Positions 33,904-39,992 of a stretch of DNA of 39,992 nt are shown one piece after another (positions within the stretch are counted from its first letter, which is position 1; each line of letters opens with the position of its first letter). Origin of the DNA: Gammaproteobacteria bacterium (GTDB lineage: Bacteria > Pseudomonadota > Gammaproteobacteria > Pseudomonadales > Pseudomonadaceae). The DNA lies in NCBI GenBank assembly GCA_018816095.1, contig JAHIWP010000019.1, positions 1 through 39,992 on the forward strand, read 5' to 3'. Under the pieces are notes generated by a model. The model saw only the letters and a program-made list of their open reading frames with translations. It was not told the DNA's origin and made no database searches. The position numbers and the translations under genes are program-made.

Positions 33904-36900
33904 ATGAAAGCAGGTTTGTACCGTCCTGATGAGTTCAAGGATAACTGCGGCTTCGGCCTAATCGCCCACATGCAGGGTGAGGCTAGCCATCACCTGCTGC
34001 AGACCGCGATTGAAGCCCTGACATGCATGACCCACCGTGGCGGCATCAATGCCGACGGTAAAACCGGTGACGGTTGCGGTCTGCTGATCCAGAAGCCTGA
34101 TGCTTTCCTGCGGGCCATGGCCAAGCAGCATTTTGCCGCCGAACTGCCCAAGCAGTACGCCGTCGGTATGGTGTTCCTCAACCAAGACCCGGTGAAAGCC
34201 GAGGCTGCACGCGAGAACATGAATCGCGAGATTCTCGCGGCCGGCCTGAGCCTGGTTGGCTGGCGCAAAGTGCCGATCGATACCAGCGTGCTCGGGCGGC
34301 TTGCCCTTGAGCGCCTGCCGCAGATCGAGCAGGTGTTTATCGGTGGCGAAGGCCTGTCTGACCAGGAATTTGCGATCAAGCTGTTCAGTGCCCGTCGTCG
34401 TTCGTCGGTGGCCAACGCCGCGGATAGCGATCACTACATCTGCAGCTTTTCGCACAAGACCATCATCTACAAAGGCCTGATGATGCCGGCCGATCTGCAG
34501 CAGTTTTACCCGGATCTGGGTGACGAGCGTCTGCAGACCGCCATTTGCGTATTCCACCAGCGCTTCTCGACCAATACCCTGCCGAAGTGGCCGCTGGCTC
34601 AGCCGTTCCGCTTTCTCGCGCACAACGGTGAAATCAACACCATCACCGGTAACCGCAACTGGGCGCAGGCGCGCCGCCTGAAGTTCGCCAACGATCAGAT
34701 CTTTGATCTGGACGATCTCGGCCCGCTGGTTAACCGCGTCGGTTCCGACTCTTCGAGCATGGACAACATGCTCGAACTGATGGTCACCGGTGGTATCGAC
34801 CTGTTCCGCGGCGTGCGCATGCTTATTCCGCCAGCCTGGCAGAACGTCGAGACCATGGACGCCGACCTGCGTGCGTTCTACGAATACAACTCCATGCACA
34901 TGGAGCCTTGGGATGGGCCGGCCGGTGTAGTACTCACCGACGGTCGTCATGCGGTCTGCCTGCTCGACCGTAACGGTCTGCGCCCGGCACGCTGGGTCAC
35001 CACCAAGAATGGCTACATCACCCTGGCCTCAGAAATCGGCGTGTGGAACTACCAGCCGGAAGACGTGCTGGCCAAAGGCCGCGTTGGTCCGGGGCAGATC
35101 CTCGCGGTGGACACTGAAACCGGGCAGATTCTCGGTAGCGATGACATCGACAACCGCTTGAAGTCGCGCCACCCCTACAAACAGTGGATGCGCAAAAGCG
35201 CTCAGCGCATTCGCGCGACCCTGGAAGACCGTGACCACGGCTCGGCGTTCTACGACCAGAACCAGCTCAAGCAGTACATGAAGATGTACCAGGTCACCTT
35301 TGAGGAGCGTGATCAGGTGCTGCGCCCGCTGGGTGAGCAAGGCCAGGAAGCAGTCGGTTCGATGGGTGATGACACGCCGATGGCAGTGCTCAGCCAGCGT
35401 GTGCGTTCGCCGTACGACTACTTCCGTCAGCAGTTCGCGCAGGTTACCAACCCGCCGATCGACCCGCTGCGTGAAGCCATCGTCATGTCGCTGGAGATCT
35501 GCCTCGGTGCCGAGCGCAATATCTTCGAAGAGTCGCCCGAGCACGCCGCACGGGTGATTCTCAGCAGCCCGGTGATCTCGCCGGCCAAGTGGCGCGCGTT
35601 GATGAACCTGGATCGTCCGGGCTTTGAGCGCCATTTGATCGACATGAACTACGACGAGTCGATGGGCCTGGAAGCCGCTGTGCGCAACATGGCCGATCAG
35701 GCTGAAGAAGCCGTGCGCGCCGGTAAGGTGCTGCTGGTCCTGTCTGATCGCCATATCGCGCCGGGCAAATTGCCGGCTCACGCCTCCCTGGTTACCGGTG
35801 CGATTCACCACCGCTTGACCGAGAAAGGTTTGCGTTGCGATTGCAACATCCTGGTCGAGACCGCCACTGCTCGCGACCCGCACCACTACGCGGTGCTGCT
35901 CGGCTTCGGCGCGTCAGCGGTCTACCCGTTCCTCGCCTACGAAGTGTTGGGTGATCTGATTCGCACCGGCGAAGTGCTGGGCGATCTGTATGAAGTCTTC
36001 AAGTATTACCGCAAAGGCATCTCCAAAGGCCTGCTGAAGATTCTCTCGAAGATGGGCATCTCCACGGTTGCCTCGTACCGCGGCGCGCAGCTGTTTGAGG
36101 CGGTCGGCCTGGCTGATGACGTCACCGAGCTGTGCTTCCGTGGTGTGGCCAGCCGCATCAAGGGCGCGCGCTTTGTCGATATCGAAGCCGAGCAGAAGTT
36201 GCTGGCGGTTGAAGCGTGGAATGCGCGCAAGTCGATCCAGCAAGGTGGTTTGCTCAAGTTCGTCTACGGTGGCGAGTACCACGCCTACAACCCGGATGTG
36301 GTGAACACCCTGCAGGCTGCTGTGCAGCAGGGCAGCTACGAGAAGTTCAAGGAATACACCACGCTGGTGGATACCCGTCCGGTGTCGATGCTGCGCGACT
36401 TGCTGCAACTGAAGCTGGCCGACCAGCCGTTGCCGCTGGAGCAGGTTGAGCCGCTGGGTGAGATTCTCAAGCGCTTCGACTCCGCCGGTATTTCTCTGGG
36501 CGCGCTGTCGCCGGAAGCCCACGAAGCCATTGCCGAAGCGATGAACCGCCTGGGTGCGCGTTCCAACTCCGGTGAGGGCGGTGAAGACCCAGCCCGTTAC
36601 GGCACCGTGCGCAGCTCGAAAATCAAGCAAGTGGCCACTGGTCGTTTCGGCGTCACGCCGGAATACCTGGTCAACGCTGAAGTGCTGCAGATCAAAGTGG
36701 CCCAGGGCGCCAAGCCTGGCGAGGGTGGTCAGCTTCCGGGTGGCAAGGTCAACGGCCTCATCGCCAAGCTGCGTTACGCGGTGCCGGGTGTGACCCTGAT
36801 TTCGCCGCCGCCGCACCACGATATCTATTCCATTGAAGACCTGGCGCAGCTGATCTATGACCTCAAGCAGGTCAATCCGCAGGCGCTGGTGTCGGTCAAG

Positions 36901-38352
36901 CTGGTAGCGGAAGCCGGTGTCGGCACTATCGCCGCCGGTGTGGCCAAGGCCTACGCTGACCTGATCACCATCTCCGGTTATGACGGCGGCACAGGCGCTT
37001 CGCCGCTGACCTCGATCAAGTACGCCGGTGCGCCGTGGGAACTCGGCCTGGCCGAAACCCACCAGACGCTGCGTGGCAACGACCTGCGCGGCAAGGTGCG
37101 GGTACAGACCGACGGCGGCCTGAAAACCGGCCTCGACGTGATCAAAGCCGCCATCCTTGGCGCCGAGAGCTTCGGTTTCGGTACTGCGCCGATGATTGCT
37201 CTGGGTTGTAAGTACCTGCGCATCTGTCACCTGAACAACTGCGCCACCGGCGTTGCGACGCAGAACGACAAGCTGCGCAAGGATCACTTCATCGGCACCG
37301 TCGAAATGGTGATGAACTTCTTCACCTACGTCGCCGAAGAAACCCGCGAGTGGCTGGCCAAGCTCGGTGTGCGCAGCCTGGAAGAGCTGATCGGGCGTAC
37401 CGATCTGCTCGACATGCTGCCGGGTGAAACCGACAAGCAGCAGCATCTGGACCTCACGCCGCTGCTGGGTAGCGATCACATTCCAGCGGACAAGCCACAG
37501 TTCTGCCTGGTTGACCGCAACCCACCCTTCGACGAAGGCCTGCTGGCCGAGAAGATGGTTGAGATGGCTAAGCCGGCGATTGATGCCGCGAGCGGCGCCG
37601 AGTTCGATCTGGACATCTGCAACTGCGACCGTTCCATTGGTGCCCGCGTATCTGGGGAAATCGCCCGCGTACACGGCAACCAGGGCATGGCTAAAGCGCC
37701 GATCACCTTCCGCTTCAAGGGCACTGCGGGCCAGAGCTTCGGTGTATGGAACGCCGGTGGTCTGAACCTCTATCTGGAAGGCGATGCCAACGACTACGTC
37801 GGCAAGGGCATGACTGGCGGCAAACTGGTGATCACCCCGCCGCAAGGCAGCCCGTTCAAGACCCAGGACAGCGCCATTATCGGCAACACCTGCCTGTACG
37901 GCGCCACTGGCGGCAAGCTGTTTGCGGCCGGTACTGCAGGCGAGCGTTTCGCCGTGCGTAACTCCGGTGCGCACACCGTTGTTGAAGGCACCGGTGACCA
38001 CTGCTGCGAATACATGACCGGCGGCTTTGTCTGCGTGCTGGGCAAGACCGGCTACAACTTCGGTTCGGGTATGACCGGTGGTTTCGCCTATGTGCTTGAC
38101 CAAGACAACAGCTTCTACGACCGGGTGAACCACGAGCTGGTGGAGATTCAGCGGATCAGTAACGAGGCGATGGAAGCCTACCGCACTCACCTGCAGCAGG
38201 TGCTGACGGAGTATGTGCAAGAAACATCGAGCGAGTGGGGCATCAACTTGCTGGAAAACCTGGACGACTACCTGCGCAAGTTCTGGCTGGTCAAGCCGAA
38301 GGCGGCAAGCCTGAAGTCGTTGCTCTCCAGCACCCGTGCCAACCCGCAATAA
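33904..38352 (+). CDS. gltB: Glutamate synthase (NADPH), large subunit
   Basis: Iron-sulfur flavoprotein of 1482 residues that transfers the glutamine amide nitrogen to 2-oxoglutarate, working with GltD. Maturation should expose C15 (KDNCGFG) as the N-terminal nucleophile of the class II amidotransferase domain after removal of a short propeptide. The central domain follows, then the FMN-binding synthase domain ([35 protein letters not shown]) with the 3Fe-4S cysteines in [15 protein letters not shown]. The C-terminal GXGXG beta-helix repeats follow ([33 protein letters not shown]). The ATG at 33904 matches the known P. aeruginosa start; a GTG four codons earlier is also in frame. gltD follows 34 nt downstream. 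Confidence 0.97.
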
Positions 38353-38377
38353 GAATGCGCCTGAAGTGGTTTGATGA

Positions 38378-39805
<1,428 letters not shown>

Positions 39806-39831
39806 TTACCGAGCAGTGAGGTTGCAATAAA

Positions 39832-39862
39832 CAAAGCCAGCCTTAGGGCTGGCTTTGTCGTT
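39832..39862 (+). terminator. gltBD terminator, tail interrupted by intron
   Basis: CAAAGCCAGCC (39832-39842) pairs perfectly with GGCTGGCTTTG (39847-39857) around a TTAG loop, followed by TCGTT. The expected T-run appears cut short where the group II intron begins at 39863. Confidence 0.88.
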
Positions 39863-39992
39863 GTGCGCCAGGCATGGCGCGTTGCGCGCAAGCGCAACCA
39901 GCTTGGCTGTGGTGGCCTCGCTGGTGACTTGGAGGTGAAAGTCCTCTACACACCCGGCAAGGGGAAGTGTTAGCCAGAGGCAAGGGTGTCGC
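39863..39992 (+). mobile_element. 5' end of group II intron, probably class C, cut by window
   Basis: The sequence begins GTGCG, the conserved 5' boundary of group II introns, and folds at once into helices. GCGCC (39865-39869) pairs with GGCGC (39876-39880). GTTGCGC (39881-39887) pairs with GCGCAAC (39892-39898) around a GCAA tetraloop. GAGG (39932-39935) pairs with CCTC (39943-39946) around TGAAAGT. ACACCC (39950-39955) can close with GGGTGT (39984-39989). The GAGGTGAAAGTCCTC stretch is one I recognise from domain I of bacterial group II introns. It begins 5 nt after a terminator stem and points the same way as gltD, the insertion habit of class C introns. The intron-encoded reverse transcriptase/maturase would lie beyond the window. 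Confidence 0.82.

Follow-up and report, generated by a model that had tools for sequence, protein, structure and literature searches.

We analysed a window of 39,992 nucleotides, the whole of contig C1 in an assembly of 87 contigs (3.53 Mb, completeness 87.13%). At its 3' end the window carries gltD, an intrinsic terminator and the first part of an intron, within which the contig stops (Table 1). The terminator folds as a perfect stem with a UUAG loop at -22.5 kcal/mol (z -5.97), which none of 200 shuffles equalled, and 429 of 462 bases (93%) of the gltD and terminator stretch are identical in the relative G108. The original prediction had called this stem perfect, which it is, and 11 bp long, where we measured 12 bp. 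It had placed TCGTT before GTGCG, and this is how the junction reads: the terminator tail runs as ...TTTGTCGTT up to 39862, GTGCGCC begins at 39863, and the letters from there to the contig end are GTGCGCCAGG... The GTGCG start, the 5' GUGYG hallmark of group II introns, also begins the other 24 five-prime halves of this genome. The GNRA-type loop and the sequence element that had been noted in the intron start were both recovered, as GCAA and GAGGTGAAAGTCCTC, respectively.

Table 1. Features at the 3' end of the window.
Feature	Position	Strand	Basis
gltD, glutamate synthase small subunit	38387..39805	+	TIGR01318, 785.6 bits vs cut-off 482.95
Intrinsic terminator hairpin 3' of gltD, 12-bp stem, loop 39843-39846	39831..39858	+	Fold; conserved in G108
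IBS1 TCGTT, final 5 nt of the 5' exon, T-rich tail end	39858..39862	+	Pairing with relatives' EBS1 AATGA
Group IIC intron, 5' 130 nt, domain I start (class assigned through relatives)	39863..39992	+	24 other copies in the same genome; 100% match to RT-followed introns
GNRA tetraloop GCAA, hairpin 39881-39898	39888..39891	+	Fold
GAGGTGAAAGTCCTC hairpin element, intron 5' part	39932..39946	+	Fold; sequence

Folded alone, the 130 nucleotides of the intron gave a z of -1.29, with 23 of 200 shuffles equally good, which is not unusual. The Rfam check that had been proposed failed on window positions 35000-39992, where there was no match up to E 1, and succeeded on the full-length relative L038, which matched RF02001, RF01998 and RF00029. 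Rfam is silent on the window end because the first L038 match starts at intron nucleotide 127 and domain V lies on another contig. Given the ordinary folding energy and the lack of an Rfam match, the structure alone is therefore suggestive and no proof of an intron; the identity of the element is established by its recurrence at 24 other contig-end places, by 25 domain V halves and by an empty site in a relative.

The genome contains 24 five-prime halves, that of the window included. Contig C55 ends in a 25th, for which only 25 bases aligned in the genome search and whose intron letters reach the contig end. The halves are 79-100% identical and all reach contig ends; the GAGGTGAAAGTCCTC element is present in the 24, while the C55 piece ends before it. 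Domain V (RF00029) was matched 25 times above the cut-off, beside contig ends, C21 included, and the 50 halves (25 + 25) take up 50 of the 174 contig ends. No complete intron copy was found in the assembly, an RVT_1 search of it gave no match, and a relative's RT used as query recovered just C-terminal RT pieces at seven contig ends. The repeat was likely collapsed and lost during assembly, which would explain why the window stops at 39992. In practical terms, such introns break assemblies. Most of the listed domain V copies of genome G142 lie close to a contig start, at a distance of some 50-60 bases, and intron-broken assemblies thus recur in the genus. A domain V-like match of different sequence on contig C74 (2995-3071, L087; 39 bits, below the cut-off) was left uncounted and possibly belongs to another group II intron lineage in this genome.

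The intron start was found in 77 of 298 genus genomes, the present one included. Among 72,556 plasmid records it matched 320; the match extended across 80% or more of the query in 95 of these, and identity reached 100%. For 56 of the 62 located introns both ends were found; these 56 measure 1,916-1,924 nt, start with GTGCG and end in ...TACTCGAT or TACCCGAT. In L037 the RT contains RVT_1 and GIIM only, without a recognised endonuclease domain, and scored 409.2 bits against the RT/maturase model TIGR04416 (415.5 bits for L038). Its best PDB match was the GsI-IIC RT (457.6 bits, E 4.5e-136, residues 55-462); further matches were 7uim (346.4 bits), LtrA (146.3 bits) and 6me0 (126.8 bits). Judged by this best match and by the endonuclease-less RT of its relatives, the intron is of group IIC, the class that had been predicted; the RT body and the EBS1 of the gltD copy are taken from those relatives and are not in the assembly. 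GsI-IIC, the best solved relative of the RT, comes from a different host group, its host being Geobacillus stearothermophilus.

Both plasmid copies inspected carry ltrA. The copies on plasmids H1-H3 and H6-H8, from Citrobacter, Enterobacter and Leclercia, show 100% identity across 97-98% of the query. Plasmid H7 was typed as conjugative, and a conjugative plasmid is a possible vehicle of intron spread. A Paraburkholderia terricola record (L206) has a copy that shares both its TTTGT tail and its EBS1 loop with the family of Pseudomonas putida 31753, and this suggests transfer between orders, or contamination.

Pairing between intron and exon was followed in a set of 78 introns, made up of 62 of the 73 loci L162-L234 (11 of the 73 are without an intron start) and 16 others, with 47 distinct rows; loci L235-L240 were left out. 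EBS1 was located as a 5-nt loop in the 5' domain, some 220 nt from the intron start (first base at nucleotide 219-224, alignment columns 226-230 counted from 0), and its covariation with IBS1 was observed in these relatives. It paired with the last five exon bases at a fraction of 0.906 over the 47 rows and 0.869 over the 32 distinct combinations, against a mean of 0.506 (sd 0.037, maximum 0.6375) in 5000 shuffles, none of which reached 0.869; relatedness among the rows and the choice of the segment by a scan mean that this comparison does not yield a strict probability. From exon position -5 to -1 the paired fraction was 0.66, 0.81, 0.91, 0.97 and 1.00. Among 388 five-base windows of the intron's 5' domain that of EBS1 had the highest pairwise difference (0.51 vs a median of 0.097) and, with 16 distinct 5-mers, was tied for the most. 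It was the top window listed at offset 0 (16 variants). Twelve windows outscored it, all at exon offset 4 and with 1 to 5 intron variants, and these were rejected as near-constant stretches against the T-run. A GACGAACAGG loop was also dropped as EBS1, the same letters being in the family consensus (L038 Rfam). A scan for EBS3-IBS3 gave column 274, which fits 86.2% of 29 rows and with which two other columns tie.

Introns that match the window copy at 100% over 130 nt carry AATGA, GTGTT, AAGCA or CTCAA as EBS1. The AATGA loop was found in L018, L019 and L096, each identical to the window copy over the first 130 nt. The copies of the genome fall into three 5' families, A, B and C, and with the exons of family A (seven copies, the one at gltD among them) AATGA pairs at all 35 positions if G-U is counted as a pair, and CATAA at 21 of 35. 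With the exons of family C, CATAA pairs at 73 of 75 positions and AATGA at 58 of 75; relatives with CATAA are 100% identical to this family over 128 nt, and the TATTG tail at C57 pairs poorly with CATAA. With those of family B, CATAA pairs at 15 of 15 positions and AATGA at 12 of 15, and the nearest relatives (94-96% identical) mostly carry other loops, so the EBS1 assignment of this family is a guess. A variable EBS1 on introns that are identical over their first 130 nt gives the impression that the introns were retargeted repeatedly, each time to terminators.

The original prediction had proposed a comparison with strains lacking the insert; in the close relative G108 the gltD site is empty. 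Its tail ...GGCTTTGTTGTT runs straight into TCTGCTGCTG (TCTGCT...), the 5' exon of our gltD aligns with G108 up to its final base, and contig C21, which carries hemE, has TCTGCTTGCC immediately 3' of the intron end. Both flanks meet in G108, and the insertion was therefore precise, at the T-rich tail end and without target duplication; this upholds the sense orientation and the gltD terminator as target. The tail itself is TCGTT in our genome and TTGTT in G108, and in G108 no domain V match was obtained among 150 of 216 first-look candidates scored. By this alignment C21 holds the other half of the gltD copy. An RT/maturase gene and domain V had been expected downstream: domain V is there, at the C21 end, whereas the contig ends before anything downstream can be read and the RT body is absent from the assembly. 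Likewise, hemE is found past the intron on C21, but as the second feature and not directly next, with about 1 kb and in it a convergent interrupted gene in between. This gene (L130 2250-3011) lies directly behind the intron and is split by a stop in our genome (131 + 121 aa), compared with a single 256-aa frame in G108 (L131 1264-2034).

Beyond gltD, 23 of the 25 five-prime flanks match a presumably orthologous place in G108 with 77-94% identity, and in 19 of these 23 no more than 3 nt separate the alignment from the junction. C75, whose G108 match is non-orthologous (58%), and C57, which has none, were left out of the empty-site counts. Sixteen of the 25 three-prime halves map to places in G108 to which a five-prime half maps as well; 11 of these start no more than about 120 nt from the junction, and five lie further off or give a short match only. 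Within these places, family A always went with 3' type ii (five pairs), B with type i (two) and C with type iii (nine). The family sizes are unequal (A, 7 vs ii, 6; B, 3 vs i, 4), so at least one copy must be of mixed pairing.

These halves bear on whether gltD holds a full intron or a shortened, dead copy, for example one that lost sequence between its two halves. A review describes the majority of intron copies in bacteria as truncated or inactivated (PMC4424553, accessible parts), and the assembly is without RT; yet the contig breaks inside the repeat here just as it does for the other copies, the 3' flank on C21 has an above-cut-off domain V together with the intron end, and the 25 five-prime and 25 three-prime halves balance; we regard a dead copy as unlikely. 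It is more improbable still that the C21 half is foreign to the gltD site, as might be thought from C1 and C21 being unjoined in the assembly: in G108 the gltD and C21 flanks adjoin, with the 5' side aligned to the last base and TCTGCT next in both, and the family combination is constant over the 16 shared places. A full intron with its 3' half on C21 is the reading retained here.

All 25 five-prime exons end, by eye, in a hairpin and a T-rich tail. With a score for this arrangement, 23 of 25 flanks passed compared with 148 of 20,000 random window positions on both strands, at a cut-off of 20 that was set after the real scores were seen; the stem is interrupted or short in the two that failed, C19 and C55. 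This score replaced a first criterion, based on RNAfold, in which the stem had to end at a distance of 4-12 nt from the junction; it was passed by 13 of 25 real and 170 of 4000 random positions and did poorly because A and T tracts lengthen stems. The last five exon bases were TTATG in 14 cases, TCGTT in six, TTGTG in three, and TCATT and TATTG in one each, the TCGTT and TCATT tails being those of family A. At 11 of 19 comparable sites (C59, C61, C69e, C8, C40, C42, C69s, C65, C38, C19 and C55) these five bases are identical in the empty G108 site; they differ at eight, gltD among them, and the pre-insertion tails are thus not known letter for letter everywhere. Such differences, and the near uniformity of the family C tails, speak for 5' tails that travelled with the intron instead of being chosen. 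This is untenable at the 11 sites, and pairing with the assigned EBS1 would hold at 87 of 95 positions for the G108 tails of the 19 sites, so that tails travelling with the intron seem very improbable as a general account. As the tails already match, the intron selects its tail in most cases. An ordinary intergenic or REP-like repeat 3' of gltD, which the unremarkable fold and the silence of Rfam might have suggested, can hardly be maintained when the identical sequence heads RT-encoding introns, the G108 site is empty and a domain V lies on the contig with the other flank.

We conclude that a mobile intron of group IIC, about 1.92 kb in length, almost certainly inserted at the gltD terminator. 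The intron would encode an RT/maturase without a recognisable endonuclease domain; its RNA would be reverse-spliced into the sense strand at the T-rich tail end of the terminator and then copied to DNA, presumably with priming at the replication fork. The target would be recognised as a hairpin, by a step we infer, plus about five bases (IBS1) that pair with the EBS1 loop, and splicing would probably occur from read-through transcripts, where it might restore the terminator tail as had been proposed. The chosen sites are places where an intron probably does little harm.

Insertion of IIC introns after intrinsic terminators is established, and B.h.I1 and its relatives are terminator-inserting IIC introns of this kind (Robart et al. 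2007, as cited in the accessible parts of PMC4424553 and PMC8919778). The present introns share with the B.h.I1 type, as far as those sources go, a target of hairpin and short tail, the sense orientation, an endonuclease-less RT and the reported preference for a lagging-strand template. Nothing fundamental differs; the present host is of Pseudomonas type, as judged from named relatives, and its one genome has three families along with two kinds of tail. The IIC-attC introns of integrons have the class and a hairpin target in common with them (PMC4424553, accessible parts), but the 25 exons here are terminator-like by eye. In Thermosynechococcus elongatus, the accessible text of PMC2882425 describes EBS divergence as a means of proliferation among 28 introns. 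The retargeting of EBS1 seen here looks similar, by analogy, although those introns are of class IIB with EBS1, 2 and 3, whereas the present ones differ in a 5-nt EBS1 and, as far as seen, still target terminators.

The kind of element is already known; what is new are well-resolved members and the series of EBS1 variants and their pairing. Turnover of EBS1 among Pseudomonas IIC introns that target terminators was not found in the literature covered (titles and abstract openings, few subscription journals), which hints that it may be new. That EBS1 is a fast-changing guide cassette, whose loop near-identical introns repeatedly swap, each swap opening terminators with other tails, is a proposal to which we give even weight; if true, several families could share one genome without competing for sites. 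A contig-edge fragment has become a well-resolved retroelement case with 25 sites, and its EBS1-IBS1 pairs form a natural series with which one can test directly if a change of the 5-nt loop suffices to lead a IIC intron to new terminators.

Agreement with the direction of replication was observed in relatives, the fork direction being defined by dnaA and a dif pattern. The domain V matches agreed with the dnaA-to-dif direction in 19 of 21 cases in G046, 15 of 15 in G012 and three of four in G005 (one match each in the G046 and G005 sets is below the cut-off); genes themselves are usually biased toward the fork direction. A search for dif in G124 gave no match. The accessible parts of PMC8919778 report a preference of IIC introns for the template of lagging-strand synthesis.

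With 29 candidates scored per genome, which makes the counts lower bounds, domain V was matched at least 26 times (25 above the cut-off) in our genome, the most among 149 genus genomes sampled; the next highest had at least 21, 17, 15 and 15, and at least 51 of the 149, our own included, had any match. Bacterial genomes with such introns have a mean of 5.3 and a maximum of 101 copies (PMC8919778, accessible parts), so the 25 copies here are high, not unique. Genomes G046, G142, G012 and G081 each have 15-21 domain V copies as lower bounds, and many copies were also found in Pseudomonas putida 31753 and Stutzerimonas chloritidismutans AW-1.
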